Virus record (IMG/VR): IMGVR_UViG_3300017779_000062
Location: 1 to 33,398 of that record
Origin: a virus
Reading direction: 5' to 3' (one strand)
DNA length: 33,398 bases
A model generated the notes under the pieces. It saw only the letters and a program-made list of their open reading frames with translations. It ran no database searches and was not told the origin of the DNA. This document shows positions 3,730 to 17,705 of this stretch, in pieces. Each line of letters begins with the position of its first letter. The stretch's first letter is position 1. The translations under genes and the position numbers were made by a program.

Positions 3730-3736
3730 CTATTTG

Positions 3737-3962: not shown

Positions 3963-4014
3963 GACCAGCTTAATCAGGAGGGAGGAGACTCCACGCTACT
4001 AGGGGTTAAACATA

Positions 4015-4164: not shown

Positions 4165-4177
4165 CTGATTAACCTCT

Positions 4178-4351: not shown

Positions 4352-4790
4352 ATTTATCCCTCGCTTTTAGGTTTACATATTGTTGGAATAGCTCGTCATC
4401 TATAGAGCTTTCTAGGTATAGAAAAATGTCCTCTCTAACTATGTCGGCAAAGTTGCCAAGATGAACGGTATCATCTACATATCCTAATGCTTCGCTCATG
4501 TACAGATCATCTCTGTCACTGTCTGGCGAATCTTCTGCCATGGCAATGAACAACTTTGATATTAACGCACTATGCGCCCTTGCTTTACCAAACAACATCT
4601 CTGTTGCCAACTTGCATACACCCTCATTAAAAGATGCAGGATATATATCTGTATACCAACTAACAAATCTGTTAAGCCAAATATGAATCGCCTCGTCTTG
4701 CAACTCTTCAGATAAGTCCATTAACGCATCTGCTTTGCTCAACACATCTTCGTTAGCGTAAATAAAGTCTTCGTAAAAATATCTAGACAC
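4332..4790 (-). CDS. Hypothetical acidic protein, 152 aa (GTG start)
   Basis: A 152-residue, strongly acidic and helical protein. The start is GTG (MSRYFYEDFIYANEDVLSKA), overlapping the TAG of the preceding 55-residue gene, with GGGGG just upstream. Helices seem likely across residues 15-40 and 60-90, and the last third carries many Asp/Glu. Acidity of this kind is seen in phage anti-host or DNA-mimic proteins, but I see nothing specific, so this is only a possibility. It lies downstream of ninG among small unknown genes. Confidence 0.65.
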   Translation of the reverse strand: MSRYFYEDFIYANEDVLSKADALMDLSEELQDEAIHIWLNRFVSWYTDIYPASFNEGVCKLATEMLFGKARAHSALISKLFIAMAEDSPDSDRDDLYMSEALGYVDDTVHLGNFADIVREDIFLYLESSIDDELFQQYVNLKARDKYEHFEE

Positions 4791-4950
4791 TACGACCCCC
4801 TATTATTCTTATGCCATCCTTTGTGTAGCAAACTAACAACTCGTAACCGATAAATCTATCATTTGCTATCTTTTCAGCTGCACGATCATTGTCTGCATGA
4901 AAATCGTAAATGGTGATACCCATTTCTTTTACCGCGTAATGCTTTTGCAT
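4783..4950 (-). CDS. Small hypothetical protein, 55 aa
   Basis: A 55-residue frame, MQKHYAVKEMGITIYDFHAD, then AAEKIANDRFIGYELLVCY and KDGIRIIGGRSV. The alternating beta-alpha-beta pattern suggests a small compact fold. AAGGGAGAGAG precedes the ATG, and a promoter-like sequence (4980-5009) sits in the gap after ninG. It overlaps the following GTG-start gene by eight bases. No family recognised. Confidence 0.6.
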   Translation of the reverse strand: MQKHYAVKEMGITIYDFHADNDRAAEKIANDRFIGYELLVCYTKDGIRIIGGRSV

Positions 4951-4979
4951 TTCTCTCTCCCTTTGATTAATTTAAATAT

Positions 4980-5009
4980 ATCCTACCACATAATAAACAG
5001 AAGTGTAAA
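4980..5009 (-). promoter_or_regulatory. Candidate promoter downstream of ninG
   Basis: On the minus strand TTTACA (5004-5009, five of six matches to TTGACA) and TAGGAT (4980-4985) are 18 bases apart, with TGG before the -10 giving an extended element. The downstream sequence AAATTAATCAAAGGGAG resembles that after the 2226 and 10351 promoter candidates. It would drive the genes from 4950 leftward. Confidence 0.5.
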
Positions 5010-5441
5010 CTATATTTCCCCAATACGATCTTCGTGGTATTTAATCTGCTCTCTGTACTCTTTCTGTAAGTCCAGTACATCTTGCCTATTGAACTTTGGT
5101 GGCTTTCTCCAAGCTAACTTCTGCATCGCCCTTATACGTCTTGCACCGTACATATCTTCCATGTAGATGCGATAGGCTTCCTGTATCTTAGTAGTCTTCA
5201 TGCCATACAAATTGCACCCAGGGCATTGGGGGTGACAATTCTCGATATACATTTTGAATATTAAATGTCGCCTACCGTAAAAATGACCACCTTGCATATT
5301 CTTATAGTGATCGACTTTACCGCAAGTAACGCACTGGCAGTACCCAAGATCATCAGATGCCTTGAGCCTTACCAGGCGTTGCATTAACTTCGCAGCTTTC
5401 TCTACTTCTTGTGCGATTGTTGGTGCTTTGCGTTTACCCAT
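5010..5441 (-). CDS. ninG: NinG (Rap) family recombination endonuclease
   Basis: A 143-residue protein with the lambda NinG/Rap pattern: a helical N-terminus, then CQCVTCGKVD, MQGGHFYGRR and NCHPQCPGCN, two Cys pairs around an HNH-like core (residues about 33-78). Rap is a structure-specific nuclease that cuts branched recombination intermediates. Lambda NinG is about 200 residues, so this is a short version. The ATG follows the stop of the zinc-ribbon gene directly (TAGATG). With Erf, SSB and NinB here, it completes a lambda-like recombination set. Confidence 0.88.
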   Translation of the reverse strand: MGKRKAPTIAQEVEKAAKLMQRLVRLKASDDLGYCQCVTCGKVDHYKNMQGGHFYGRRHLIFKMYIENCHPQCPGCNLYGMKTTKIQEAYRIYMEDMYGARRIRAMQKLAWRKPPKFNRQDVLDLQKEYREQIKYHEDRIGEI

Positions 5442-5642
5442 CTAGTGCCTCGTCTTACCATCGTCATCGGCAGTCTGTACAAGCTCATCGCCAACACCCA
5501 GATGACAGCTATTGCACAGCCCAAAGCTAGACCCATTAGAATCAACCCAATACTCAAGAACGATACCGCACTCGCAAAACTGTCGGGTAAGTGTGTAATT
5601 TTCGCCTTTAGGAAATTTAATAACATTATCATCACTCATCAT
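5442..5642 (-). CDS. Small zinc-ribbon-like protein, 66 aa
   Basis: A 66-residue frame containing CECG at about residues 23-26 and CNSCH at 43-47, spaced like a zinc ribbon, and ending QTADDDGKTRH. The start overlaps the stop of the metallophosphoesterase gene; there are two ATGs (5642, 5639). It is likely a small nucleic-acid or protein adaptor. A 77-residue frame (5402-5635) covers the same DNA in another register and is probably its shadow. Confidence 0.7.
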   Translation of the reverse strand: MMSDDNVIKFPKGENYTLTRQFCECGIVLEYWVDSNGSSFGLCNSCHLGVGDELVQTADDDGKTRH

Positions 5643-6807
5643 TTAGACCATCTATTGTTATTTTGACTCTACTATCTTCACCGTTTTTCTTATGATAAAC
5701 AATAGCTGTCATTGATCTGTTTGCTCCGTATCCCGAATCGCTGTGCCATTGATCGGTGGAAGTCAGACTCGAAAAATGCTCAAAAAGCATTGTTCCTACC
5801 TCTTTGCTCATTTGATGATGTATGTGACCCATGTGACAATATCTATGCTTGCAGCGCGACCACTCTTCATCCAGATTGGTTACTACAGCCTGGAGAATCT
5901 GCTCATGCTTTACTCTGTCTCCGTGGTGATAAACAAAAAGATTATTCTCCCATTCCCAGTGTAGGAACTTAGAATAGTTTTTAAGCACATTAACTCTTGG
6001 CTCTCTGTCGTATAGTAATTCTAAGCAACTAGATAAGTGACAAGCCATATCGCTGTCGTGATTACCACGAACATTAATTACTACTACCTCTTGATGCACT
6101 TCTAGCATCTTATCAATAATAGTTTGGAACAGTCTGCCAGCAAGTTTGAACGTCTTTCCAATGCGTGTATCTACATCTACTGGTGTTCCCGCAGTGGTCT
6201 TATTATCACCAGAATTTGCATGAAATAGATCTCCTACGTTTACCAAAACTCCAGTATGAGCATTGCCAACACGACTCGACAATCTATCCACGGCATCAAT
6301 TAAGACTTTAGTCGCTATCTTCACATCCCAGTCAGCATCATCAAATTTAGTGTCTGAGTCGGAAAGCATCCCAAAATGGTGATCACCGACAAGGTACTGG
6401 GCGCAATAATCTTTATTAATTTCTTTAGGTGCTGTAACAGGCTTTTTAAAGCCAGTCAGGTCATCACGCAATCCATCGACCATAGCGTCAATCTTTTGTC
6501 TTAGGTCGCGTTTCTCTGGCTCTTGGATAACCCATTGCAGGGCAATTGATCCGTCTTCTTTGTATGCAGTTGAGATACGCTTTGCGTTAAATCCCTCTGC
6601 TGTTTGATGTGTTAAGTCTCTATGCGGAGCAACACCTTGGCTTGCTGCTTTCTCTTCTAGTTTCTTGAGTAGCCTGTAAGCATATCGTCTATCGCAGTTT
6701 ACCTGTCTACAAGCCTCGCTTACGTTTGACTCTGTTGCTAGTGCGCTTAATATCTCTTTCTGTCTTTCAGTCGTACAAAACGGTATTAATGTCTCAGGTC
6801 TTAGCAT
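5632..6807 (-). CDS. HTH-metallophosphoesterase fusion protein
   Basis: A 391-residue protein. Residues 10-55 look like a helix-turn-helix module (ERQKEILSALATESNVSEAC then RRYAYRLLKKL). From about 135 a calcineurin-like phosphoesterase carries its motifs in order: GDHHFG (141), VGDLFH (191), RGNHD (247), HHGD (294) and GHIHH (327), all with metal ligands present. It presumably hydrolyses a phosphodiester or phosphomonoester of DNA, RNA or nucleotides; the N-terminal module suggests nucleic-acid targeting. AGGAGAG precedes the ATG. Neighbours NinB and NinG place it in a recombination/repair setting, perhaps as an SbcD/Mre11-like nuclease. Confidence 0.85.
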   Translation of the reverse strand: MLRPETLIPFCTTERQKEILSALATESNVSEACRQVNCDRRYAYRLLKKLEEKAASQGVAPHRDLTHQTAEGFNAKRISTAYKEDGSIALQWVIQEPEKRDLRQKIDAMVDGLRDDLTGFKKPVTAPKEINKDYCAQYLVGDHHFGMLSDSDTKFDDADWDVKIATKVLIDAVDRLSSRVGNAHTGVLVNVGDLFHANSGDNKTTAGTPVDVDTRIGKTFKLAGRLFQTIIDKMLEVHQEVVVINVRGNHDSDMACHLSSCLELLYDREPRVNVLKNYSKFLHWEWENNLFVYHHGDRVKHEQILQAVVTNLDEEWSRCKHRYCHMGHIHHQMSKEVGTMLFEHFSSLTSTDQWHSDSGYGANRSMTAIVYHKKNGEDSRVKITIDGLNDE

Positions 6808-6808
6808 T

Positions 6809-7267
6809 TTAACTCTCCTGTTGTTTTTTTATTTCCGCGTACTCACACTCTAATGGTATTGATAATCTTATTCCTAATTCTATTGCCCAATGATATACCT
6901 GGTCTAAATAGTGCGCCATTTCCCCTTTCTTTAAGTCGCTACTACTCTTCACTTGCTCAGATATTTCATGCTTGCCTATCTTATATGTGTCTGTCCCTAG
7001 AAATCTTTTCTTTAGCCATATCTTCCAAACTAACTCAGGCTTGTCGTGTTCAACCCTATGCCCCTTATTATGCATCTCTTTAGCGATCTCCCTGTACCAT
7101 ATATGAGATAGCGCATTCTGACTAAGGCTTCTTGGGTCTTGGTACTTCTCTAGCTTAACAACCAGGGGCTGAGTAAAGTCCCAATCCATCATGTTATCAA
7201 TCAGGTATTTTGACCTTTTCTCTACTTCACCCCTGCTGTTAAATCTCACAAATGCTCCTTGGCTCAT
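6809..7267 (-). CDS. ninB: NinB (Orf family) recombination mediator
   Basis: A 152-residue protein with the NinB signature: a substrate-binding strand (QPLVVKLEKYQDPRSLSQNA) followed by LSHIWYREIAKEM, a basic middle, and a helical C-terminus. Lambda Orf/NinB (146 residues) binds SSB and single-stranded DNA and helps load recombinases, replacing RecFOR. The start sits in a TAATG junction with the upstream PAPS-reductase-like gene. An SSB gene with a DDIPF tail in the same phage is the expected partner. Confidence 0.88.
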   Translation of the reverse strand: MSQGAFVRFNSRGEVEKRSKYLIDNMMDWDFTQPLVVKLEKYQDPRSLSQNALSHIWYREIAKEMHNKGHRVEHDKPELVWKIWLKKRFLGTDTYKIGKHEISEQVKSSSDLKKGEMAHYLDQVYHWAIELGIRLSIPLECEYAEIKKQQES

Positions 7268-8049
7268 TAGTCACCACAAAAGCAACTCATGGTGCTGTCA
7301 TCAAAATCAAACAAATTGCTTTGCTCTTTAGCAATGATCTGCAAATCTTTATAACTTGGACTGTCTTTTCTAAACCTAGCATTTAGTCTTTCTTCTTGTG
7401 CAATCCACCAATCAGCCAGTTCAGGCTTATGCTCAATAATAGACTTTTTTATCTTTGTACCTTTAAGAAAGCATAAGTCACAATTACTAAGAGTATTAAA
7501 CTCTGCTTTAGGCAGCTGAAGATCAAACTTCTGCTCTTGCCAAAACATACTTATATCAACTTCAGTCACATTATCATCGGCTAATGGAACATGATAGCCA
7601 TCTTTTGCTCGCATCTTTACGACTCGTCTAGGCTCATCGCCACGAATACCTACAGCCGTATCAAACTCGCAGTTCATGTATCGCTCAATAGTTAATACTT
7701 TAAGTTCTGATGTGCAAAATCTAGCCATGCTGTTTGGCAAGTATGATCTATCAGTAATTAACTTTTCAAACGGCTCACCATTTCTGCTTGCTGTTTCGTA
7801 GTCAACCTCTTTGTATGTTCTCTTTCCGTTATACTCTAGCCATACGATAGGCACATTCCAGTTGTAAGCACAATCTTCTACAAAATCTAATGTTTGAGGC
7901 ATTTCTTTACCAGTGTTACAGAAGATAACTTTTATATTTTCAGGTAAAGCAAAGTCGTGTGCTTCTAAGGTTTTATATAATAAGTAAGCAGAGCTTCTAC
8001 CACCACTAAAAGAAATGACAGTTTTATCGGTAAAATGATATGGGTTCAT
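7267..8049 (-). CDS. Phage PAPS reductase-like (CysH/adenine nucleotide alpha hydrolase) protein
   Basis: A 260-residue protein from the ATG at 8049, in an ATGA overlap with the upstream gene. The PP-loop SFSGGRSS is at residues 13-20, with CNTGKEM soon after and RFCTSELK in the middle. C-terminal Cys motifs CDLCFLKG and CFCGD suggest a bound metal or an iron-sulfur site. Family members activate a substrate with ATP or use adenylyl sulfate. Phage copies are common but seldom characterised: proposed roles are host sulfur metabolism or sulfur-type DNA/tRNA modification. Its place next to recombination genes and close to a DNA methyltransferase leans toward nucleic-acid modification, as inference only. 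Confidence 0.82.
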   Translation of the reverse strand: MNPYHFTDKTVISFSGGRSSAYLLYKTLEAHDFALPENIKVIFCNTGKEMPQTLDFVEDCAYNWNVPIVWLEYNGKRTYKEVDYETASRNGEPFEKLITDRSYLPNSMARFCTSELKVLTIERYMNCEFDTAVGIRGDEPRRVVKMRAKDGYHVPLADDNVTEVDISMFWQEQKFDLQLPKAEFNTLSNCDLCFLKGTKIKKSIIEHKPELADWWIAQEERLNARFRKDSPSYKDLQIIAKEQSNLFDFDDSTMSCFCGD

Positions 8050-8321
8050 AATGGCTTCCTCAACCACTTATTCATAACAGTTTCGCATCTATCCTCAAAA
8101 GCACTGGTGCGCTTCTTCCTTGCGCTATAGTCTCTTCGTTTTGCTTCCCTGACTGGCACTAAATCCCTGTCTGTAACAAAAGGTCTCCTGCCTAGCCTAT
8201 TAGTTATTGCTTTATATGTGATACCAGATGCTTCTGCAAGTTCGTTGTATGTGTAGAACTGCCCGTTAATTAATACATCACTTTTTGTGCCGTCATACCT
8301 TTTTCTTATTCTTGCTGGCAT
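8046..8321 (-). CDS. Small DNA-binding-like protein, paralogue B, 91 aa
   Basis: A 91-residue basic protein with NGQFYTYNELAEASGITYKA then NRLGRRPFVTDRDLVP, which looks like a helix-turn-helix (YNELAEASGITYKAITNRL). It is paralogous to its upstream neighbour at 8321-8590, sharing YTYNEL, a TY..I.NRL stretch and the .P..T..DL.P tail. The start is in a TAATG overlap. The basic C-terminal half (RRDYSARKKR) fits DNA binding. Likely a small regulator or accessory factor. Confidence 0.7.
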   Translation of the reverse strand: MPARIRKRYDGTKSDVLINGQFYTYNELAEASGITYKAITNRLGRRPFVTDRDLVPVREAKRRDYSARKKRTSAFEDRCETVMNKWLRKPL

Positions 8322-8590
8322 TATAATTTTCTCCTCAAATAGTTTTGCGATATTATCATCGCATCAGTCTCCAGTCTGCATATCTCTTTTGGCTTGCTCT
8401 TGGCTTTGCCTCCACTTCTTGAATATGGTGGATAAAGATCGTCACTTGTGCAGTAAGGCTTACTATATAATCTGTTTTTAATGCAGTTATATGTAGAGCC
8501 TATTAGTTCAGATAATTCGTTATAGGTGTAATAGTTACCATCTAATAGCGAGTCATGTCTTCCCTTGAACTGGATTTTTCGGGTTTTCAT
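8321..8590 (-). CDS. Small DNA-binding-like protein, paralogue A, 89 aa
   Basis: An 89-residue protein with DGNYYTYNELSELIGSTYNC then NRLYSKPYCTSDDLYP, matching paralogue B downstream across about 45 residues. The C-terminus is basic and ends ISQNYLRRKL, against MNKWLRKPL in the partner, so similarity spans the whole length. It overlaps the end of the upstream gene by 38 bases with a weak ribosome binding site, so coupling is likely. Probably a tandem duplication of an HTH-containing gene. Confidence 0.65.
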   Translation of the reverse strand: MKTRKIQFKGRHDSLLDGNYYTYNELSELIGSTYNCIKNRLYSKPYCTSDDLYPPYSRSGGKAKSKPKEICRLETDAMIISQNYLRRKL

Positions 8591-8957
8591 GTCTTACAGT
8601 CCCATCAAAGTAATAGCCATATTTACCTATGAAATAGTTAATGGCTCTGTTTTTTGCCTCCACATTTTCAACCCAACTAACATCAGCCAACTTATCTTCA
8701 ACTGATATAGCTCTACTACTTTGACTCTTAGACTTAACCATGGGAGAGCCGCCAGATTCGGCAGCCCTCTTTAACCAAGAATCAATAAACCTCTTCATGC
8801 CAACCTTTGTCTTTCTTTTTGCTGGATTAGCATCTAACCAAGATTCCATCGATAACAGTTCCTGCTGAACTTTAACACCACGCTCTGAATAAGCTCTTTC
8901 CCAAGCGATAACATCTTCTGCCTTTGGTTCGTATGTACTACCGTCTTTACATAACAT
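8553..8957 (-). CDS. Replication-associated protein, C-terminal-domain-like, 134 aa
   Basis: A 134-residue protein beginning MLCKDGSTYEPKAEDVIAWE. The ATG at 8957 is preceded by GGGGGAATAATT; earlier in-frame codons have no site. The pattern AWERAYSERGVKVQQELLSM ... MESWLDANPAKRKTKVGMKR followed by FIDSWLKRA is one I associate with the C-terminal part of phage replication initiator proteins. Without an N-terminal winged-helix domain here, it may work with the HTH protein encoded just upstream (8960-9262). No helicase or DnaC-like gene is seen. Confidence 0.55.
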   Translation of the reverse strand: MLCKDGSTYEPKAEDVIAWERAYSERGVKVQQELLSMESWLDANPAKRKTKVGMKRFIDSWLKRAAESGGSPMVKSKSQSSRAISVEDKLADVSWVENVEAKNRAINYFIGKYGYYFDGTVRHENPKNPVQGKT

Positions 8958-8959
8958 AA

Positions 8960-9262
8960 TTATTCCCCCAGTGAATACTGCATTACACTGCAAGACTCAT
9001 TAAACTTGTTCTTAACAGTGATACGCTTTTTCTTAATATCTATGCCATCTTGCATCATTTCGGAGATTCTAGCCGATAATCGGTAAATACCCAAGTCTAT
9101 TAATGCTTCACGACCAGTAATGTATTTATTTTCTTGCAGATAATTATGTATTCTCTCTTGCTGTGTCATTGGCTTTTCCTCTGGTTTGTTAAATATTGCA
9201 TCGTAATTAGAATCAAACTTAGCTTTGTTTGTTGGTCTTTGCTTACTGCCTTTACCGTTCAT
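8960..9262 (-). CDS. Winged helix-turn-helix protein, 100 aa
   Basis: A 100-residue protein beginning MNGKGSKQRPTNKAKFDSNY. I prefer the ATG at 9262 to that at 9316 because GGAGG lies seven bases upstream and the longer form would overlap the methyltransferase by 53 bases. Residues 33-85 (MTQQERIHNYLQENKYITGR, EALIDLGIYRLSARISEM) read as a winged HTH common in small phage proteins. The GKGSKQRP N-terminus also recurs in such proteins. Likely a DNA-binding accessory to replication or regulation. Confidence 0.7.
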   Translation of the reverse strand: MNGKGSKQRPTNKAKFDSNYDAIFNKPEEKPMTQQERIHNYLQENKYITGREALIDLGIYRLSARISEMMQDGIDIKKKRITVKNKFNESCSVMQYSLGE

Positions 9263-9263
9263 A

Positions 9264-10298
9264 TCACGCCTCCATGTTTTTAAATATATGTGAAATAACC
9301 TCAACTGTCCAACCATTGCCTAGCATCTTGTATCTCTGACTATTAGAAACACCCACGGTATAGCCATCAGGAACAGTCTGTAGTCGCTCGCATTCTAATG
9401 GTGTTAGCTTTCTGTAATTACTAGGTGGCTGAAATACTTTTGGCTCTCTGTTTCCACCAGTACAAGCATTTAGCGTAGATGACTTACCCTCATAATGATA
9501 AACACGTTTGAGGCAATCATGACCTTTTAGGTCAGCATGACCCATAAATATAAGGCCATTATCTGATCTATGTGGAACAATTCTAGTGTCTTGAAAGTAG
9601 TTATAAGGAACACCCTTGTAGAAGTTAGCAGTCAACGTAAATGCTTTATCTTTCTCTGGTGCTTGTGTGTATCTGTCTGCTCTTCTGTTACCCGCTTGCA
9701 TCCATTTATCGTTACCTCTTTCCATGTATGCAATAGACTTTTCTGAATGGTAATGTTCTTCACCAATGTCAGATACATCCTCTAGTATGTCTCTTAATAC
9801 GATTCCTTTATCGTTTGGTTGGGATATCCGTGGGATATTTGTCCAGTACAATCTCTTTCTGCTTTGCGCTGAAACCAGACTTGAGTCAATAGCTATGGGA
9901 TAGACTCCAAGAATATCGTTAATAACGTCTTGGCATTCTTGCTTCATTCTTACATTTTCGAGTAGAAAGTATTTAGGATTACACTCTTTCACTAATCGAG
10001 CGTATTCAAAGAATAGTTTTGATCTTGGGTCATCAAAGTTCAGCCTGTCTCCTGCAAAGCTAAATCCCTGACAAGGCGAGCCACCAATCACCAGGTCAAT
10101 CTTATGCCCATCAAATGACTCAGGGTACATTACTTCTTGGACATCACCCAGGTGGATAGTGTCTGGGTAATTCTTCTTAGCTATCTGTATAGCGTACTTA
10201 TCAATCTCAGCAGCAAAGTATTTATCTACTTTAATTCCTGCTCTTTCAAGTGCGATTCTTCCGCAACTCATTCCGTCAAACAAACTTAGTACATTCAT
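9264..10298 (-). CDS. C5-cytosine DNA methyltransferase
   Basis: A 344-residue enzyme with the C5-MTase motifs in order: SAM-binding LFDGMSCG (6-13), the catalytic PCQG (75-78), ENVR (114-117), QSRKRLYWTN (about 145-155), and the C-terminal RYKMLGNGWTVEV. It transfers a methyl group from SAM to cytosine C5. The target-recognition region between motifs VIII and IX is short, as in small phage enzymes. No restriction endonuclease is nearby, so it likely protects phage DNA or marks it for regulation or packaging. AGGAG precedes the ATG; a promoter with an operator-like palindrome lies 53-81 bases upstream. Two copies of the dyad repeat family fall within it (9825-9837, 9890-9902). Confidence 0.93.
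   Translation of the reverse strand: MNVLSLFDGMSCGRIALERAGIKVDKYFAAEIDKYAIQIAKKNYPDTIHLGDVQEVMYPESFDGHKIDLVIGGSPCQGFSFAGDRLNFDDPRSKLFFEYARLVKECNPKYFLLENVRMKQECQDVINDILGVYPIAIDSSLVSAQSRKRLYWTNIPRISQPNDKGIVLRDILEDVSDIGEEHYHSEKSIAYMERGNDKWMQAGNRRADRYTQAPEKDKAFTLTANFYKGVPYNYFQDTRIVPHRSDNGLIFMGHADLKGHDCLKRVYHYEGKSSTLNACTGGNREPKVFQPPSNYRKLTPLECERLQTVPDGYTVGVSNSQRYKMLGNGWTVEVISHIFKNMEA
9825..9837 (+). repeat. Intragenic dyad repeat TATCCGTGGGATA
   Basis: A perfect unit lies inside the methyltransferase gene, encoding part of NIPRI on the other strand. A degenerate copy (TAGCTATGGGATA, 9890-9902) lies 52 bp further on. Both have the orientation of the intergenic array. Confidence 0.85.
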
Positions 10299-10350
10299 TT
10301 CCCACTCCTATATGGCTCAACTAAAGTTTCGCCCGATTAATTTAATATTT

Positions 10351-10379
10351 ATCTTATATACATAATTGTTTATGTACAA
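10351..10379 (-). promoter_or_regulatory. Promoter with operator palindrome for the methyltransferase operon
   Basis: On the minus strand TTGTAC (10374-10379) and TAAGAT (10351-10356) are 17 bases apart. The spacer and part of the -35 box are covered by the 18-bp inverted repeat TACATAATTGTTTATGTA (10359-10376), seven-base arms around TTGT. A dimeric HTH repressor there would block polymerase; the 71-residue HTH protein (10689-10904) is the obvious candidate. AAATTAATC follows the -10, as at two other promoters. Confidence 0.6.
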
Positions 10380-10450
10380 GCATTATTTAACCCTTTCACT
10401 GCGCTGAGCGAAATTTAAGATCAAAGGGCATAGCAACTTTGCGGTTACAT

Positions 10451-10577
10451 TGTATTCGTATCGGATATCCAACCTATCTCTTTGCAGAAACCGATCTGCA
10501 TCGAGGGCTTTGTCTGGAGGGTCAACCACGCTCTGACGTTTTATTTAAGGAGTTCGTCAGCCCCAAGCCCGAATACA
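10451..10577. ncRNA. Candidate structured RNA in a gene-free region
   Basis: Within the 390-bp gap at 10299-10688, complementary segments nest coherently: TGTATTCG (10451-10458) with CGAATACA (10570-10577); TGCAGA (10483-10488) with TCTGCA (10495-10500); GGCTT (10506-10510) with AAGCC (10565-10569); CTGACG (10533-10538) with CGTCAG (10555-10560). TCGG (10461-10464) could also pair with CCGA in the second hairpin loop. No protein frame is evident. Strand is undecided: a plus transcript would end at the hairpin 10681-10702; a minus transcript would run toward the methyltransferase. I recognise no known RNA family; an origin or DNA-level structure is an alternative. Confidence 0.4.
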
Positions 10578-10680
10578 CAAGACAAGATAAGATAATACTT
10601 CTATGGAATGGATAGTATGGTATACTTAGCTTACTTGTTTTGTCGTAGATTCAAGTATAGTCTTTCCTGAGACTAAAAGT

Positions 10681-10702
10681 AAACCCCCTTAATTGGGGGT
10701 TT
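10681..10702. terminator. Probably bidirectional intrinsic terminator
   Basis: AAACCCCC (10681-10688) and GGGGGTTT (10695-10702) pair around TTAATT. T-rich tracts follow on both sides (TTTCTATTTT on plus; TTTACTTTTAG on minus). The stop codon of the HTH gene lies in the loop. The core matches the left-end terminator (341-358) in opposite orientation, so its original direction may be plus. Confidence 0.75.
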
Positions 10703-10904
10703 CTATTTTCTGGTATAACAAGAAGTCGTAGATCGACAAATCCATTGCCCTACATATTTTCTCTACTGTATGAATTTTCATGTTTGCTTGCGCCCTCCAC
10801 CGTACTACTTGCTGCGGTGTACTGTCTGCGCGTTTAGCTAACTCAACACTGGATATGCTTAAATCGACTTGTGCCAGTCGTAGGCATTTGCCTGTATCAA
10901 TCAT
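10689..10904 (-). CDS. Small Cro/XRE-like HTH regulator, 71 aa
   Basis: A 71-residue protein whose residues 16-60 give an XRE-type helix-turn-helix (SISSVELAKRADSTPQQVVR then WRAQ, followed by the dimer-side IHTVEKICRAMDLSIYDFLL). The size matches Cro-like proteins; there is no C-terminal self-cleavage domain as in CI. AAAGGAA precedes the ATG. It is encoded after erf and ssb and before a terminator, and the operator-like palindrome at 10359-10376 is a plausible target. It is the only classical XRE regulator seen. Confidence 0.82.
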   Translation of the reverse strand: MIDTGKCLRLAQVDLSISSVELAKRADSTPQQVVRWRAQANMKIHTVEKICRAMDLSIYDFLLYQKIETPN

Positions 10905-10905
10905 G

Positions 10906-10932
10906 CTGACATTCCTTTTATCGTGTTAAAAT
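10906..10932 (+). promoter_or_regulatory. Candidate plus-strand promoter for a small RNA
   Basis: CTGACA (10906-10911) and TAAAAT (10927-10932) with a TGT extension just before it (TGTTAAAAT) form an extended -10 promoter; the spacer is a short 15 bases. Predicted initiation is near 10939, where the first hairpin of the candidate small RNA begins. Confidence 0.4.
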
Positions 10933-10938
10933 CGAGAT

Positions 10939-10994
10939 GTGAGTTTCCCCACTCACGCTCCTATGGTTTGCCCCCTCTTCGGAGGGGGTTTTTT
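10939..10994 (+). ncRNA. Candidate small plus-strand RNA, about 55 nt
   Basis: All protein genes are on the minus strand, yet a strong plus-oriented terminator sits here. From the likely start site the sequence gives hairpin GTGAGT/ACTCAC (10939-10956, loop TTCCCC), a short linker, then CCCCCTC/GAGGGGG with a TTCG loop (10971-10988) and six T (10989-10994). A plus-strand promoter lies just upstream. The unit fits in the gap between the HTH gene and ssb, its T-tract overlapping the ssb stop codon. It could be an antisense or trans-acting RNA, or the hairpins may act as HTH leader structure on the minus strand. Confidence 0.45.
10971..10994 (+). terminator. Strong plus-strand intrinsic terminator
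   Basis: Seven perfect GC-rich pairs (CCCCCTC/GAGGGGG) with a TTCG tetraloop are followed by T6. Read on the minus strand no T tract follows, so its direction is plus. Confidence 0.8.
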
Positions 10995-11301
10995 AAAACG
11001 GAATATCGTCTTCAAGTAGATCGGCTTCCTGAATTACTGCTTTCACTTTAGCAGTGTTTCCAGTCGCGCCTTTAGCATCGTTAGAAAATACTTTTACATT
11101 GCCAAGTATCTCTGTCTTAACACCTGCTTCACGCTCTTCCTTAGAAGTGCTTTGCTTAATAAAGCCGTTGTTGTCATATTGATCTTTGTTATCAAGATCG
11201 ACAAAAGTTGTCAGGTCTAAATAAGTTCCTTTAGCTCCTTTATACAACCTTGCCTTATCTATCTTTTCAACATTGATTCTTATACTAATACCTACTGTCA
11301 T
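10993..11301 (-). CDS. ssb: Single-stranded DNA-binding protein, SSB-like
   Basis: A 102-residue protein with an OB-like beta pattern (ISIRINVEKIDKARLYKGAK, GTYLDLTTFVDL) and the acidic hydrophobic tip LLEDDIPF, which matches the C-terminal peptide by which bacterial SSBs recruit partners. It is shorter than E. coli SSB (178 residues), lacking a long linker. Encoded 10 bp after erf with GGAG upstream, it probably coats single-stranded DNA for Erf annealing and NinB binding. Confidence 0.83.
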   Translation of the reverse strand: MTVGISIRINVEKIDKARLYKGAKGTYLDLTTFVDLDNKDQYDNNGFIKQSTSKEEREAGVKTEILGNVKVFSNDAKGATGNTAKVKAVIQEADLLEDDIPF

Positions 11302-11311
11302 GGTCTATCTC

Positions 11312-11935
11312 CTATTGGGCTTCTCTAAATTCAGATGTTTTCATTATTTCCCTTTCCTTGGTGGTGAACTTTCCACCTTTCGAGGGGGCTTTCCATACTA
11401 ATTGTTTCTCTGTGTCGCTGAGAGACATCCATTCTTCGTTAGCCGTGGAATAGTCTCCAGTTGCAATGCCATCCTTAATTGCTTTGATCACAGGCAAAAG
11501 GTCAACAATCATGTCCTCATACTCATCCTGCTTAGACTTCTCTGTCCGTAACATTGCAGACTCAGCATCATCATCAGCCGTAGGTATGCCAGCAATAGAT
11601 TGCAAAGCATAACGTCTAGCATAAGTGATTGCCGATCCCGCAGCTTGTGGATCACGTTTGACTAAAGGCAAGGTGTAGCTATTCTCCATCCACTCACCTG
11701 ATGTATGCATCAGTCTCGTAACGACACCAACGCCAAGCTCATCAGATATAGGGAATTGAGTATAGCTAAGACCATTCTTAGCAAACGACTCTTTGATAGC
11801 TTTAATAACGGATGTTAAGTCCGCGTAGCTAGATTTGAAGAAAGGGTTAGAGGAATCTTTAACCGCACCCCCCATCTCAGATTGTGCCTTACATAATGCT
11901 TCTGCAAGGGCTTTTATTGACTCACTAGATTTCAT
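11312..11935 (-). CDS. erf: Erf-family single-strand annealing protein
   Basis: A 207-residue protein with the ERF pattern: N-terminal helix (LAEALCKAQSEMGGAVKDSS), then NPFFKSSYADLTSVIKAIKE, and the hallmark SAITYARRYALQSIAGIPTA (about residues 98-117) followed by a DDDAE acidic stretch. Erf of P22 anneals complementary strands during recombination and circularisation. A good promoter (11960-11988) and a strong AGGAGGT site mean it heads its operon: erf, ssb, HTH regulator. Confidence 0.93.
   Translation of the reverse strand: MKSSESIKALAEALCKAQSEMGGAVKDSSNPFFKSSYADLTSVIKAIKESFAKNGLSYTQFPISDELGVGVVTRLMHTSGEWMENSYTLPLVKRDPQAAGSAITYARRYALQSIAGIPTADDDAESAMLRTEKSKQDEYEDMIVDLLPVIKAIKDGIATGDYSTANEEWMSLSDTEKQLVWKAPSKGGKFTTKEREIMKTSEFREAQ
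11440..11452 (+). repeat. Intragenic dyad-repeat variant TAGCCGTGGAATA
   Basis: This variant falls inside erf and encodes part of DYSTA on the minus strand. It shows the GGAATA form also seen at 12491, 26355 and 30641, and the same orientation as all other copies. Confidence 0.6.
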
Positions 11936-11959
11936 ATTATTACCTCCTATGGAAGTAAC

Positions 11960-11988
11960 AATATACTCTAATGATGATTATCTATCAA
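11960..11988 (-). promoter_or_regulatory. Sigma70-type promoter of the erf-ssb operon
   Basis: On the minus strand TTGATA (11983-11988) and TATATT (11960-11965) are separated by exactly 17 bases; each matches consensus at five of six positions. AGGAGGT (about 11942-11948) and the erf ATG at 11935 follow. It lies in the short gap after the endolysin gene and separates early recombination genes from the late operon. Confidence 0.75.
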
Positions 11989-11997
11989 CAATAATGT

Positions 11998-12345
11998 TTA
12001 GTATTTCCAAACAACTGGCGTAGTTTCACGAATGTCTACATGGATAAATGTCTTAGCAACACCGATACCAGTAAAGCCTAATCGCATAGCTTCTTTGATA
12101 ATAGTATGACGTTGTGCGCCACCAGATACATATATATCACAGGCAATTCCCTGGGCATGAGTACCTGGCTTTGCTTTCTTAGCCTCTATACTATGGGATG
12201 GACTTCTGTAGCCACTAGTGATCTTAAACGGAAACCCACACGCTTCACGCAATTGGTCTAGCTTGTAAATAAACTCTGCTGACATTTCGTTCTCGCCAGT
12301 CTCCTGACAGTCAAACTCTTCGACAGTAAAATACTTAAATCTCAT
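11998..12345 (-). CDS. M15-family peptidase endolysin
   Basis: A 115-residue peptidase_M15-like protein: SGYRSP (44-49), the zinc-binding GTHAQGIACDI (H63, D70) and FIHVD (H102, D104). The family cleaves peptide cross-links of murein; phage copies are usually endolysins. It has no signal sequence, so it depends on a holin. The ATG overlaps the TGA of the 3TM holin gene (ATGA), a typical coupled holin-endolysin pair. It lies at the end of the late operon. Confidence 0.9.
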   Translation of the reverse strand: MRFKYFTVEEFDCQETGENEMSAEFIYKLDQLREACGFPFKITSGYRSPSHSIEAKKAKPGTHAQGIACDIYVSGGAQRHTIIKEAMRLGFTGIGVAKTFIHVDIRETTPVVWKY

Positions 12346-12713
12346 TTCTTTAAACTCGCTAGTTTGCTGACACCCTTAATACCAAAGCTACTAGAAATAG
12401 CTATGAACAATAAATACTGATACCACTCAGGTAACTGAGCTAACGCCTGGAAGCCATCTTCAACACGAATAACAATATCAGGATCTCCTACAACTATGGA
12501 ATAGCCTATCATGAATATAGGGATCGATAAAACTATAGTCCAAAATTCGTCACGCCATGAATTTTGAGTAGCATCAACAGCTTTAGATTCCCACTCAGCA
12601 TCGTTCTCAATTACTTTAATCTTTGCCTTATGCTTTGCTTGCTTTTCTTCTGCTTTGTTCTTCATGTAGCCACCTGCTAACTTGGCTACTGGTGCAATTA
12701 AATTCATCCACAT
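12342..12713 (-). CDS. GTA/3TM-type holin
   Basis: A 123-residue protein of the kind described as 'holin of 3TMs' in phages and gene transfer agents. After a basic helical N-terminus (about 20-40) come WRDEFWTIVLSIPIFMIGYS and WYQYLLFIAISSSFG, two clear hydrophobic segments, plus a weaker N-terminal one (LIAPVAKLAGGY). AGGAG supports the start. It overlaps the endolysin gene. A dyad-repeat variant (12491-12503) falls within it. Confidence 0.82.
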   Translation of the reverse strand: MWMNLIAPVAKLAGGYMKNKAEEKQAKHKAKIKVIENDAEWESKAVDATQNSWRDEFWTIVLSIPIFMIGYSIVVGDPDIVIRVEDGFQALAQLPEWYQYLLFIAISSSFGIKGVSKLASLKK

Positions 12714-12725
12714 TGTTATCTTCTC

Positions 12726-13196
12726 CTATAAGGGCATCGCTAGTGCATCGAGCGCACGCCAAATATCGTCATACTCCGTCTTGGCAGTATCCCAATTAGC
12801 TTTAATCTGATTCACATCCTCTACGACCAACTCAGCCTTTGCAACTATGGCTCTCATTGTCTCAATATCTTTTTCTAAATTAGATACGCTTGTAGTGATT
12901 TCTAAGAGCTTTTCTTGCTGAGATGATATAGTTATCAGGTTTGTGCCTAAAGTAGCTAATTTCGCGCTTAATTGGCTTATATCGTTGTCTTTAAGCTGTT
13001 GTTCTATCAGTTGGATAGATTCGTGCAAAGGTGCTACGTCAGGAACGCTAATTGCTTCAACTGCTTCTAATCGTGAATACAGGCTTGATGCAGTCCAAAC
13101 TCCACCGCCAATGGTAGAGCCAATTGCTAAAACTACTGCGATCCACGCACCCTTAAAGGTTTGACCGCCTATCTTTAATTCGCTGTCTTCAATCAT
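12726..13196 (-). CDS. Membrane-anchored coiled-coil protein of the lysis block, 156 aa
   Basis: The ATG at 13196 sits in a TAATG overlap with the upstream stop; the codon at 13205 sometimes chosen as a start would be TTG. A hydrophobic segment (GAWIAVVLAIGSTIGGGVW, about residues 16-35) is followed by a long coiled coil to the C-terminus. N-in/C-out topology with a coiled ectodomain resembles an inner-membrane spanin, though no outer-membrane lipoprotein partner is recognised. It precedes the holin and endolysin genes. Confidence 0.6.
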   Translation of the reverse strand: MIEDSELKIGGQTFKGAWIAVVLAIGSTIGGGVWTASSLYSRLEAVEAISVPDVAPLHESIQLIEQQLKDNDISQLSAKLATLGTNLITISSQQEKLLEITTSVSNLEKDIETMRAIVAKAELVVEDVNQIKANWDTAKTEYDDIWRALDALAMPL

Positions 13197-14026
13197 TATT
13201 CGCAATCCATATTAAAGAAACAATCATAACCCATAGCAATAGGTGACGTTTGATAAAACTCTGTCTCTGTACCTAGCGCAAGAATATCTGCCTCGCTGTA
13301 GTACAAGTCTAAACCAAAGGCATCGTTACCATTTAAGTAAACAACTGTCAGGTTTCTGGTTGTGTTGTAACCCATAGCCACCCACTGCGCTCCTGCATCA
13401 TAAAAGATATTAACATCAGCAGATGTTGTGTTTTTATCCTCTATTGATTGCTGTAGGAAATCTGCTGCCTCAGAGTTAGCGACACTCAGGTAAACTGCCG
13501 CCTCATTGGCTGATGTTTCAATCTCATCGAGACTGGTGTTGTATGTGTCAACATCGTCTTGGTCGATAGTAAGCATTTCCTGATTCTGCGAAACAAAGGT
13601 CTGCACTTCTTCTTCTTGTTTGGGGGTGCTTGCTGATTCAGCCTTTTCTGCTACCTGTGCAACTGAAACCAGATCAACAGTTACCTCAACAAAAGTATCA
13701 ATGTGCGTTTCCATCTCCGCCAGAGAATCCATCGCCATGTTTTCTAGCACTGCTTTTACAGGTGCGCCATAGGGTAAATAATTAGACATATTCGACAATG
13801 CAGAGTTATAGGCATCAACCTGCTCTGCGCCAATGTGCGCTGTGCTAGATAGTGTGCCGTCAGATATGCCACCGCCAGTGTACGCATACTCAGTAGCCGC
13901 ACCAGTAAGGGCTATGCCTTTAGTAATCTGATTAACTATGGTGTTGCTAGAGTCAATCAGGTTATCTAGTTCATTGCTTTGTACTGCGGTACTTATCGCT
14001 AATAGAAATGCTATCTTCTTCCACAT
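13196..14026 (-). CDS. Secreted or envelope protein of unknown function, 276 aa
   Basis: A 276-residue acidic protein with a signal peptide (MWKKIAFLLAISTAVQSNEL, likely cut near S17). The mature part is Ala-, Asp- and Ser-rich with long helices (about 100-190) and a C-terminal Cys pair (DCFFNMDC). Its start overlaps the end of the previous secreted-protein gene by 56 bases. Two consecutive exported proteins between tail fibre and holin suggest envelope-directed roles such as lysis control or superinfection exclusion; the family is not recognised. Confidence 0.6.
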   Translation of the reverse strand: MWKKIAFLLAISTAVQSNELDNLIDSSNTIVNQITKGIALTGAATEYAYTGGGISDGTLSSTAHIGAEQVDAYNSALSNMSNYLPYGAPVKAVLENMAMDSLAEMETHIDTFVEVTVDLVSVAQVAEKAESASTPKQEEEVQTFVSQNQEMLTIDQDDVDTYNTSLDEIETSANEAAVYLSVANSEAADFLQQSIEDKNTTSADVNIFYDAGAQWVAMGYNTTRNLTVVYLNGNDAFGLDLYYSEADILALGTETEFYQTSPIAMGYDCFFNMDCE

Positions 14027-14591
14027 CTTCGCTTACCTTTCCTATCTGGAGAATGCCGTTGTAATATTTCCGATTCTTTTTGTAATCAGGAATATATAAT
14101 TCTGGGTTTTGCTTTATTAGCATCAACCCCCGCTTCCCCGCTACTAATCTCCCATTGTTTATAAACGGACATGGTGAACCCGCTAACAACATACTCTTAT
14201 AGACTTCTTCACTTTGGCACAACATAGACACTGCCGCCACTTTTAAGCCCAAAGTTGATAGCATCCTAGAATATTTTAACCTAGTACAGTCTACATCTAG
14301 CTCATAACCACCGCTAGAAAATCCAACTGCCACTGTCTGCACTGAACCTGCTGTGCCTTTTAAACAGGTATCAGAACCATTAGACATAAAGGTTGGGCTA
14401 ATTGCAGAACCTACTGGAATCTCACTAGCGGCACCTGCGCCATTGTAGGTGTTTTCAGTTTTGCTACTTGTGTCAGTAGTAGTGTTGTTGCTGTTAGCTA
14501 CGCTATTTTCGCCATGATAGTTGTTTAAACTACCCTGCTCATTAGCAAAAGCCATTGATGAAAGTAGCCATAGGATAGCTAATCTTTTCAC
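13971..14591 (-). CDS. Secreted protein of unknown function, 206 aa (GTG start)
   Basis: A 206-residue protein from a GTG codon overlapping the stop of the small membrane protein (GTGA). A signal peptide (MKRLAILWLLSSMAFANEQ) is followed by a low-complexity N/T/S-rich stretch (about 20-55) and a Cys-containing domain (CLKG, DCTRLKYSR, MLCQSEEVYK, SPCPFINNG). The late basic segment ends in an acidic tail. Export and odd Cys pairing suggest periplasmic folding. I recall similar phage hypotheticals beside lysis genes but cannot name a function. Confidence 0.65.
   Translation of the reverse strand: MKRLAILWLLSSMAFANEQGSLNNYHGENSVANSNNTTTDTSSKTENTYNGAGAASEIPVGSAISPTFMSNGSDTCLKGTAGSVQTVAVGFSSGGYELDVDCTRLKYSRMLSTLGLKVAAVSMLCQSEEVYKSMLLAGSPCPFINNGRLVAGKRGLMLIKQNPELYIPDYKKNRKYYNGILQIGKVSEDVEEDSISISDKYRSTKQ
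14565..14577 (+). repeat. Intragenic dyad-repeat variant TAGCCATAGGATA
   Basis: It overlaps the region encoding the signal peptide of the secreted 206-residue protein (ILWLL on the minus strand). Orientation matches every other copy, but the reading register differs from most of the other coding copies. Confidence 0.5.
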
Positions 14592-14755
14592 TTTTTAGGC
14601 AACAACTTCTGAACTGTATCTGATTCATAGATACGAATACCTAACCAGACAATCGTGAATAAACTAGCAACAGGGGGCAACCAAGCCGCTAACGACATGA
14701 CTCCAGTTGATGCCGCCAATACGTCTACAGTTTGCTTTGTTTCTTCCGTTACCAT
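14588..14755 (-). CDS. Small holin-like membrane protein, 55 aa
   Basis: A 55-residue protein, MVTEETKQTVDVLAASTGVM, then SLAAWLPPVASLFTIVWLGI and RIYESDTVQKLLPKK. The polar N-terminus, two hydrophobic segments with a WLPP turn, and charged C-terminus match a short phage holin/hemolysin-like type that I have seen beside tail-fibre genes. AGGAGAATAAA precedes the ATG. With the 3TM protein downstream, the phage has two holin candidates; one may act as antiholin. Confidence 0.7.
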   Translation of the reverse strand: MVTEETKQTVDVLAASTGVMSLAAWLPPVASLFTIVWLGIRIYESDTVQKLLPKK

Positions 14756-14771
14756 TTTATTCTCCTAAGAA

Positions 14772-14984
14772 TCATCGTGGTATTTCGTGTAATACGTTAT
14801 AATCTTCACCGCCCTCGTACAGCTTATAACCGCGCACAACTGACAGTATAGACTCGTCATTTACTGATGCTAAAACTAATGCTCCAGCACCATCAATAGC
14901 TTCTTGCTTTGTATCGTACTCGTGATGCTTGATATATTCAGTCCTACCATTCGCATCGTTTCGTGTATATCCTACTACATACAT
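14772..14984 (-). CDS. Small protein following tail fibre, paralogue 2, 70 aa
   Basis: A 70-residue protein starting MYVVGYTRNDANGRTEYIKH and ending EGGEDYNVLHEIPR. It shares its MYV.GYT start, an aromatic/acidic middle and a G.K/G.KL stretch near the end with the 71-residue protein at 17487-17702. Both follow a fibre gene directly, so they may be fibre chaperones or small capping proteins. AGGGAAAG precedes the ATG. The paralogy is by eye and weak beyond the N-terminus. Confidence 0.6.
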   Translation of the reverse strand: MYVVGYTRNDANGRTEYIKHHEYDTKQEAIDGAGALVLASVNDESILSVVRGYKLYEGGEDYNVLHEIPR

Positions 14985-14985
14985 A

Positions 14986-17109
14986 TTAAACTTTCCCTAC
15001 GTCTGTAAATGTAACACTGGCTAAATCTAAAACTGCGCTATCAGTAGTTGCAAGCTCTTTTAATTTGAATCTATATGTTAAACGAGAATCGTCATAAGCT
15101 ACTTTAAACTTCAGTGATTCGCTTTGATGTCCGTAAGATACATATCTTTCATCTATTTCTATCGTCTTAGTTAAAGTTGTCCCTGCTGATTCCCAATCAT
15201 AAGGATGCCAGTAAACAGTGTCTCCAGTTGATAAAGAAACGCCAGGATTGCTGTCATGTAAAAAGTAAGTTCTGTCGTTAGCCTCATCATATTGCCAAGC
15301 CCTAACTCTCATTGCGTTAGTAGAGGCAAGCCCTGTCGAATTTACCCTACCAAACTCAGTAAAGTGATGCGTATAATCGCCAGAGACATATCCCCAATAT
15401 TCAAAGCCACTTTGAGTATAAATTGACGAGGAATACATCATCGTAACTGTACCCATATTAACTACTGTAGCATTGGCAGGTACAATAACTTGAGCCTGAA
15501 GTTCTAAATCATTTGTACCACTATTAACATATCGCCAATCTAAATAAAGTTTCAAGTCTACATAACGAGAACAGTCTACTGGTGTAGATGGGTGAATAAT
15601 ATCCGTTATATTGCCGACATTCTGTAAGATAGTTGTAAGTGTAAGTGTGCCGCTAGGCGCAGTCCGCAAAGCCACTTCATTGACTCTATGATAAGGAATA
15701 GTATCTAATCTAGCACCATCTGCGGCTACGTCTCTGCCGTCTACTGTGCCATCAACAGCTATGTCCCCATATATATTGACGTTGCTATCAGCATTAGCAG
15801 AAGAAGCACCAATGTTGATATTTGTTGTATTTGCGTTATAACCAGTACCTATGTTTACTGTTTTAAACTGACCAGTTGCGTTAAAGTCAGCACCAGAGGC
15901 AAGATTAGTGGTTATTGAGCCTGTTGTACTTATATTCAAATTAGATGCTGTGATATCTCCAGCAACATTTAAATTAGTTGCGTTAGGTAACTCAAGTGCT
16001 GTAGAAGTAAGCGACATCACTGTAGTTAATGTATTGTCTTTAGCTAAATTAAAGTCTAGCTGTCCATCTTTACTGTTACTGTCTGCATCATTAAGAACAC
16101 CAGTTATGTTGGCATATTCTGCTGTGCTGAAAAAAGGTGGGACAGACTGTAGAAAGCCATAAAACTCAATTTTACCAACACTGTCATCATCAACAGTAGA
16201 GCCACCAGACCTTCTTTCTAATCGTATCGTTGGTGAAGCTACATCGCTAGTATCAGCATTATATATATGCAAAGCAGGGGTGCTTGTGCTTGACTGCGTG
16301 ATACTTATGTTGCCTGTACCAGTAATGTCATTACCATTAAGGTCTAAGTCACCGCCTAGCTGTGGCGTAGTATCGTCTACTAAGTCCTGCATAGCTGAGT
16401 TAGCGGTAGTGGTTGTGGTTGACAGAACAGCATCTCTAGTTGCTATGTCTACGCCATCTACTGTGCCACCAACAACAATGTTACCACCTGCTGTAATGTT
16501 TCCGCTTGATGCTTGTATGTTACCACTCGTTGTAACTATGTCACCTGTTACTGTAGTGATGCTTCCAGTGCTTGCAAGAATATTACCTGAAGTAGCTAAT
16601 GAGGATACACTGACAATCGCATTGTTTTGACCGTCTAACTGCCCACCTAGCTGTGGATTAGTATCTTCAATAAGATTCTGTAACGCTGAATCAGCAGTAG
16701 AGCCTTGTGCGGCTGTAGCATAGTCTGAAGAATCAAAAGCCTTAACCTGTGCTAGGTTAGTTACTTCTGAATCCATTAAAGCACCTGCGGCAGATACGTT
16801 TGCAGATGTAATGTATTGAACAACACTAGACTCAGTAATATTTGCATCAGGTACGTCAGCCCAATTTACTGTTGTAGTCAGGTCGTTTGCTTCTGTTACT
16901 GCGGCAAGCTGATCTATTGCACCCTGAACATTTGTAGCGGTGACTAAGCCTGATGGCGTTACCGCCAGGTATGAACTATCAACAACAACAGAGGGAATAG
17001 CAGTATTTACTGTGATTGGCTGTACTACTTCAGCAGTCGAAATCACTACACCATCAGTTGATATAGAGATATTATTTGTAATTTTATTGACCGCTATAGT
17101 GATAGCCAT
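14986..17109 (-). CDS. Large tail fibre protein, 707 aa
   Basis: A 707-residue fibre. The first 60 residues look like a virion attachment domain. Repeats follow: SALQNLIEDTNPQLGG (about 141-156) and SAMQDLVDDTTPQLGG (about 238-253), each leading into N/T/G-rich beta-helical stretches (LNGNDITGTGNISI; NIGTGYNANTTNINIG). The last 220 residues form a distinct globular domain, probably the receptor-binding tip. This layout is typical of fibres from marine phages. It lies between the small structural gene at 17109-17447 and the MYV.GYT gene. Confidence 0.85.
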   Translation of the reverse strand: MAITIAVNKITNNISISTDGVVISTAEVVQPITVNTAIPSVVVDSSYLAVTPSGLVTATNVQGAIDQLAAVTEANDLTTTVNWADVPDANITESSVVQYITSANVSAAGALMDSEVTNLAQVKAFDSSDYATAAQGSTADSALQNLIEDTNPQLGGQLDGQNNAIVSVSSLATSGNILASTGSITTVTGDIVTTSGNIQASSGNITAGGNIVVGGTVDGVDIATRDAVLSTTTTTANSAMQDLVDDTTPQLGGDLDLNGNDITGTGNISITQSSTSTPALHIYNADTSDVASPTIRLERRSGGSTVDDDSVGKIEFYGFLQSVPPFFSTAEYANITGVLNDADSNSKDGQLDFNLAKDNTLTTVMSLTSTALELPNATNLNVAGDITASNLNISTTGSITTNLASGADFNATGQFKTVNIGTGYNANTTNINIGASSANADSNVNIYGDIAVDGTVDGRDVAADGARLDTIPYHRVNEVALRTAPSGTLTLTTILQNVGNITDIIHPSTPVDCSRYVDLKLYLDWRYVNSGTNDLELQAQVIVPANATVVNMGTVTMMYSSSIYTQSGFEYWGYVSGDYTHHFTEFGRVNSTGLASTNAMRVRAWQYDEANDRTYFLHDSNPGVSLSTGDTVYWHPYDWESAGTTLTKTIEIDERYVSYGHQSESLKFKVAYDDSRLTYRFKLKELATTDSAVLDLASVTFTDVGKV

Positions 17110-17447
17110 TATCTAGTAACCTCTTGGGTAAGATCAACCTCGCCCTGTAGAAGCCTAGAAACTAGTGCATCATTGCCTGTATGTATTTCAAGATCATAAT
17201 AGTAGCGACCTGCCTCAAGCACCTTAGAAGTGCCATTAGGCAGCTCCATTTTAATGATGCCGTTAGTCGGTGTGGCTATCGTGCAAGTGAAAGTTGCAGC
17301 AACGTCAGCCGCATCTTTAGTTTTTCGCATTTGCGCTCTTGCTGAATAGTTTGTTAAATCCTTAACACTACCATCTTCTGAAAGGGTAAATTCAACAGAA
17401 AAATCTGCACCTTGATCTATTACTAGATTATAAATTGCCGCAGCCAT
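17109..17447 (-). CDS. BppU-N-like small structural protein, 112 aa
   Basis: A 112-residue beta-rich protein: YNLVIDQGADFSVEFTL, NYSARAQMRKTKDAADV, then GRYYYDLEIHTGNDALVSRL and GEVDLTQEV. This arrangement resembles the N-terminal domain of baseplate/tail adaptors (BppU-like). Its ending parallels the N-terminal domain of the gpW-like fusion protein (30501-31082: GHYFYQLEITRADGERVVV). It probably joins a fibre to the tail tip. The stop lies one base from the fibre start. Confidence 0.7.
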   Translation of the reverse strand: MAAAIYNLVIDQGADFSVEFTLSEDGSVKDLTNYSARAQMRKTKDAADVAATFTCTIATPTNGIIKMELPNGTSKVLEAGRYYYDLEIHTGNDALVSRLLQGEVDLTQEVTR

Positions 17448-17486
17448 ATCTATCTCATCTTTATGTTTGGTTGTATATTCTTCTAA

Positions 17487-17702
17487 TTATAACGCTTTAT
17501 CCTGGTACCCACCAATGTCAAATGAGTCAGGTGATGTCTTAATGCCCCAGAAAAAATCGTTAATAGTAGAATCATCTTTTTTATCTTCTATCATACGATA
17601 GAAAGAGCTTCTAAACTCTGCAAAAACTTCCCACTCTTCATAAACTACATAAGGGTCTATGCCATCACTAGGATTTGCTAAAGTATATCCAATAACGTAC
17701 AT
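17487..17702 (-). CDS. Small protein following a tail gene, paralogue 1, 71 aa
   Basis: A 71-residue protein starting MYVIGYTLANPSDGIDPYVV and ending FDIGGYQDKAL. It shares the MYV.GYT start with the protein at 14772-14984, and both directly follow a fibre-like gene. GGGGTAATTT precedes the ATG. It is aromatic and acidic (EEWEVFAEFRSSFY). A fibre-assembly role is suggested by position only. Confidence 0.6.
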   Translation of the reverse strand: MYVIGYTLANPSDGIDPYVVYEEWEVFAEFRSSFYRMIEDKKDDSTINDFFWGIKTSPDSFDIGGYQDKAL

Positions 17703-17705
17703 AAA

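Follow-up and report, generated by a model that had tools for sequence, protein, structure and literature searches.

A small RNA (sRNA) is encoded on the plus strand of a marine phage, opposite an operon of recombination genes. It is quite probably a trans-acting antisense RNA of the phage that masks ribosome-binding sites (RBSs) within the phage's own operon. A fixed sequence in the sRNA matches the RBSs of the phage's recombination genes, so that their translation is probably turned down. The window, that is the whole stretch of DNA analysed, comprises positions 1–33,398 of the IMG/VR record IMGVR_UViG_3300017779_000062. Positions of the features are given in Table 1.

Table 1. Features of the sRNA unit, its neighbouring genes and its predicted targets in the window.
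Feature	Position	Strand	Basis
Small RNA, about 56 nt	10939–10994	+	Match of covariance model R1 (window left out of the model)
sRNA promoter: CTGACA (10906–10911), 15-nt spacer, extended -10 TG-T-TAAAAT (10924–10932)	10906–10932	+	Sequence
5' hairpin GUGAGU-UUCCCC-ACUCAC, C-rich conserved loop	10939–10956	+	Fold; covariation in relatives
Linker GCUCCUAUGGUUU, single-stranded, proposed seed (anti-Shine-Dalgarno)	10957–10969	+	Unpaired in fold
Intrinsic terminator GCCCCCTC-TTCG-GAGGGGGT, UUCG loop, U6 tail	10970–10994	+	Terminator scan
Cro/C1-type HTH gene, divergent neighbour of the sRNA	10689–10904	-	Pfam HTH_26, E 3.6e-7
Gene upstream of the sRNA in the operon, ssb in the preliminary description, 102 aa	10993–11301	-	No Pfam match
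ERF-family recombinase, main predicted target gene	11312–11935	-	Pfam ERF, E 1.5e-26
C5 cytosine methylase, gene after HTH, predicted target gene	9264–10298	-	Pfam DNA_methylase, E 2e-49
Shine-Dalgarno region CCAUAUAGGAG of the C5 methylase gene, predicted target	10305–10315	-	Duplex -18.9, rank 1/45
ERF start region, 15-bp hairpin holding Shine-Dalgarno site and AUG	11933–11965	-	Fold; duplex -16.2, rank 2/45
Shine-Dalgarno region of ssb, weaker predicted target	11309–11319	-	Duplex -14.2, rank 3/45

The RNA unit in the window

The covariance model matched exactly the extent of the unit (47.5 bits, E 2.1e-9). A 66-nt stretch folds with -24.8 kcal/mol (z -3.2 against shuffles). The preliminary description of this DNA had proposed a self-contained plus-strand sRNA in a genome with all genes on the minus strand, with an extended -10 promoter, a hairpin from the predicted start and a UUCG-capped terminator with T6. 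These proposals held. Every identifiable gene of the window is on the minus strand, and the hairpin lies at the predicted start. The terminator with its U6 tail heads the list of terminator-like structures in a scan of positions 1–20000. The promoter is present in the sequence, and all 98 unique copies from relatives have its extended -10 pattern TGNTA---T ahead of the linker, compared with 11 expected from shuffling. With conserved promoter and terminator sequences, the sRNA has a predicted transcription unit of its own, as expected of a phage antisense sRNA that acts at RBSs. Promoter, terminator, plus-strand covariation and conservation of the whole unit give strong support, and the plus-strand unit is confirmed as a sequence element.

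The promoter overlaps the RBS of the divergent HTH gene. At its other end, the sRNA overlaps ssb by 2 nt, within the stop codon. A terminator-like hairpin at 10681–10702 was on the lists of both strands, directly after the HTH stop codon. Between the HTH and methylase genes, about 380 bases (10300–10680) hold no convincing open reading frame (ORF). A second structured RNA, considered on the minus strand of this region at 10455–10600, was rejected (fold z-score -0.04).

Occurrence and gene neighbourhood

More than 100 contigs of IMG/VR carry the unit, and it invariably diverges from the same small HTH gene. A pattern of loop, linker and terminator start matched at least 119 stretches in IMG/VR. 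A search with the ssb protein yielded 80 IMG/VR loci, most of them with the unit downstream of ssb on the opposite strand. Among 89 unique copies, 37 different arm pairs form the 5' stem, whereas the C run of the loop and the linker YCCTATGGTTT are kept, one group having CCTATGGTAGTTT. The CCUAUGGUUU of the linker does not vary among 35 diverse copies, and no other long single-stranded stretch of the sRNA is conserved.

Of 142 unique copies, all but 4 at contig ends have the HTH gene as their divergent neighbour. The other neighbour belongs to the window-type SSB family in 111 of the 142. In the inspected cases without a detected member of this family, its place is usually taken by another SSB-like protein, a classical OB-type SSB among them (naming by inspection). 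RNA and HTH gene thus stay together while the SSB gene is exchanged. Contigs with an exchanged SSB gene are L184, L088 and L135 as well as L085, L122 and L134. The replacements are an OB-type SSB or a short protein with a start like MSDYEQKDNSGAIFKNDKKES and the end DDDIPF.

Outside these phages, one exact-pattern scan of 84,980 prokaryote genomes did not find the unit. Its two matches (L192, L193) had no 5' hairpin, promoter or U-tract like those of the element and no significant model score. Pattern matches in L170 were G-rich start regions and not the sRNA element. Two start regions of that stretch (L170:4528 and 4808) have the repeated motif GGGGAAACCATAGGAGGGCGGGGAATG; no copy of the element was found there. 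The best model match in element-lacking contigs had an E-value of 0.017, and further matches of about 22 bits in relatives were plain terminators in the three records examined. Rfam 15 contained no family that matched the window RNA at the gathering cut-off (best RF02766 Ysr49, 19.9 bits against 95), nor any that matched five relatives' copies at this threshold. Among the matches listed by literature and seed-string searches, none described the sRNA.

Among cultured relatives, Methylophilales phage Venkman (SSB 56%) and three Vibrio phages have no element beside the SSB gene. The Roseobacter phages CRP-823, -811, -831 and -821 (terminase about 57% identical) carry an opposite-strand hairpin, a CU-rich linker (ACCTCTTCCTCCCCAAGACTT) and a terminator just after the gene of a ssDNA-binding protein (L198:5625-5680, L199:6839-6895, L201:6308-6363 and L202:5741-5803). 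Model matches to these loci are weak (E 0.16–0.27). They possibly encode an analogous sRNA with another seed.

Complementarity to ribosome-binding sites

The conserved linker CUCCUAUGGUUU is complementary to Shine-Dalgarno sites C-Y-R-U-AGGAG of the phages' own genes. These sites lie chiefly before the gene of the ERF/Rad52 recombinase and before the one that follows HTH, which in the window encodes a methylase. The complement of CUCCUAUGG is CCAUAGGAG, a Shine-Dalgarno site whose upstream part is fixed. Sites with CUGU, CCGU or CUAU replacing CCAU also pair with the linker when G–U pairs are allowed.

In the window, 45 start regions were ranked by duplex energy (RNAduplex) with the linker alone, leaving out the terminator arm. 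The median was -8.5 kcal/mol, and the top three were the start regions of methylase, ERF and ssb. In the ERF start region, CCAUAGGAG at 11944–11952 (minus strand) is complementary to the linker. In relatives, the ssb start site is only rarely matched (5 of 87). The preliminary description had seen HTH or ssb as regulated, by way of the antisense overlap with the 3' end of ssb. This view gives way to ERF/Rad52 and the gene after HTH as better predicted targets: the overlap is minimal, and ssb is third in the window and rare as a target in relatives.

Start regions, called by simple rules, were compared between element-bearing contigs and a set of 69 element-lacking contigs with the same SSB family. 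CYRUAGGA was present in 144 of the 1360 unique start regions from element-bearing contigs and in none of the 492 from element-lacking ones (p 9e-21, indicative only because the contigs are related and p-values overstate independence). Plain AGGAG was rarer in the element-bearing start regions. TAGGA was preceded by CYR at 144/283 sites with the element and 0/50 without. Restricting the comparison to ERF/Rad52 genes left 73 unique start regions from element-bearing contigs, of which 57 are strongly complementary to the linker and 16 only weakly. Among the 22 from element-lacking contigs, 1 is strongly complementary (p 4e-10, with the same reservation). Element-lacking ERF genes whose proteins share 77–83% identity with that of the window have no target site, so close protein kinship does not explain the site. 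The one element-lacking exception is L311, in which the SSB-type gene has diverged and the site is partly altered. Most contigs with a target site but without the exact element carry a variant of it. When the linker was shuffled, 4 of 200 shuffles, which may equal the true order, reached the count of the true linker over all start regions and none exceeded it.

Target sites cluster 1–2 kb upstream of the sRNA (ERF/Rad52, small ORF) and 0.4–1 kb beyond it (gene after HTH). The genes after HTH belong to different, unrelated families and have the common leader GAGGCTTGCCGAGCCATAGGAG, for example L342:1405-1411. In relatives, the gene after HTH carries GAGCCATAGGAG. The GAGGCTTGCCGAGCCATAGGAG leader has the appearance of a fixed regulatory leader ahead of exchangeable genes.

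The C-rich loop could provide a second seed, directed at RBSs of the GGGG type. GGGG sites are enriched in element-bearing contigs (318/1360 start regions against 49/492 in element-lacking contigs), partly from upstream terminators. This would suit such a role of the loop, but the groups also differ in G+C (0.42 with the element, 0.37 without), a difference that bears on the comparison of the target sites as well.

Proposed mode of action

The DNA itself shows that the unit exists, on which strand it lies, that it is conserved and that it occurs specifically together with complementary target sites. From this we infer that the RNA is transcribed and pairs with its targets in the cell, that it represses and does not activate them, that it has a role in timing, and any part played by a chaperone. 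Host RNA polymerase would synthesise the sRNA from the plus-strand extended -10 promoter, and the transcript would end at its own intrinsic terminator. The linker would then pair with the C-Y-R-U-AGGAG sites of a small number of genes in its own phage, mainly ERF/Rad52 and the first gene after HTH. Pairing would block ribosome binding and lower translation of the targets. As translation would be lowered at some sites, genes of one operon could be expressed unequally or shut down in time. The sRNA is antisense within its target operon and no minus-strand terminator is present there; the operon message would thus carry the full complement and could titrate the sRNA. A tentative extension, about which we are doubtful, is a riboregulon within one phage operon: a fixed 12-nt anti-Shine-Dalgarno seed would control several non-homologous genes with the same leader, and titration of the sRNA by the full-length message would act as a timer that uncouples the recombinase from SSB.

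The position of the sRNA, encoded antisense inside the operon with HTH as the constant neighbour, would also suit an action mainly in cis on the ssb-HTH message. Convergent transcription, with a perfect 56-nt complement in the polycistronic message, could trigger cleavage or block read-through into HTH. The minus-strand hairpin has no U-tract, so that the operon message probably reads through. It is unlikely all the same, as it explains neither why a fixed linker lies beside freely varying stems nor why matching sites precede other genes.

The hairpin in the ERF start region of the window sequesters the Shine-Dalgarno site and the start codon. In relatives, many ERF/Rad52 start regions have a similar small hairpin with an RUAGGA loop and varying arms (GAC/GUC, UGC/GCA, GGC/GCC). 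An sRNA that opens such hairpins would activate its targets. This is quite improbable: the sRNA would pair with the very bases of the Shine-Dalgarno site and so mask them, and many targets with GAGCCAUAGGAG leaders have no such hairpin. Since the ERF start region forms a hairpin of its own, it may be conserved in part for a different regulator, such as a protein recognising GGA in loops.

RNA structure and strand

Because MAFFT places the 5' stem wrongly in alignments of stems of unequal length, covariation was counted on a set of equal-length hairpins. In 19 distinct hairpins, 133 of 133 cells of the 5' stem are standard pairs, and five of the seven pairs vary on both sides. The covariation score was 0.693, compared with 0.236 in shuffles and less than 0.1 when slid. 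The terminator stem and loop also change together in relatives, with UUCG, GNRA and other loops and compensating changes in the stem. Covariation in related phages, which the preliminary description had named as a check, was thus found for both stems. The strand is indicated by 30 of the 133 cells of the 5' stem, which are G–U pairs and would be C–A mismatches on the minus strand. This argues for selection on the plus-strand RNA.

A functional minus strand, with AAACCAUAGGAG as the RBS of HTH or of a leader peptide and an incidental plus-strand reading, is very improbable on this evidence. One contig group (L340) has a closely spaced ATG in frame with HTH, but the window and the other groups examined have no such ORF. 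Promoter and U-tract indicate the plus strand, and the G–U pairs fit this strand only.

Relation to known small RNAs

The c4 antisense RNA of phages P1 and P7 is structured, complementary to the region around a phage mRNA RBS and blocks translation (PMC12197685). By description, c4 and the sRNA are alike: both are phage-encoded structured RNAs, and complementarity to the RBS of phage genes, typical of the class of c4 and sar, is present here. They differ in that c4 targets the antirepressor message; the sRNA has its own opposite-strand promoter and several predicted targets, namely ERF/Rad52 recombinase genes, the gene after HTH and small ORFs. The sar RNA of phage P22 is small, pairs with a phage mRNA and hinders the initiation of translation, with ant as the one antisense target (PMC12197685). 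The sRNA is similar as a small phage RNA predicted to pair with phage mRNA; unlike sar, its main predicted targets are outside the encoded overlap.

The OOP RNA of lambda acts as an antisense RNA on cII mRNA via RNase III (PMC12197685). Like OOP, the sRNA is short, has its own promoter and is antisense to an operon beside a regulator gene. Its overlap with ssb is too short for an OOP-like action through the coding sequence. A role solely as a promoter/terminator boundary, or as a transcript that primes replication beside the SSB gene, as was formerly supposed for OOP RNA, would suit the shortness of the element and its SSB-type neighbour. Such a role is extremely unlikely, since neither function needs a fixed anti-Shine-Dalgarno linker or predicts target sites.

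The phage sRNAs VpdS (phage VP882, about 50 nt) and PreS (lambda) act in trans and bind Hfq; PreS acts on host dnaN (PMC12197685). They share with the sRNA the action in trans that we propose here. The target of PreS is a host gene, whereas the evident targets here belong to the phage itself. With respect to Hfq, the sRNA has a U6 tail. In staphylococci, sRNAs with UCCC seed motifs, RsaE among them, use a C-rich unpaired seed against G-rich Shine-Dalgarno sites. The idea of a C-rich seed is shared with these RNAs; they differ in being bacterial and Gram-positive and in having another fold. By analogy, the sRNA family, absent from Rfam, is like c4, sar, VpdS and PreS in principle. It appears to differ from these in having several targets within its own phage and a seed in the linker, and in its constant position opposite the operon that it apparently controls.

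To our knowledge, the sRNAs described from phages other than the model phages are few, and most came to light singly through transcriptomics. The sRNA described here was recovered by comparative sequence alone and is widespread in uncultured marine phages. The phages provide a natural experiment, in which the same genes occur with and without the sRNA and their start sites differ accordingly. The predicted target sites are directly testable. They suggest that phages can regulate recombination genes post-transcriptionally by a single multi-target RNA.
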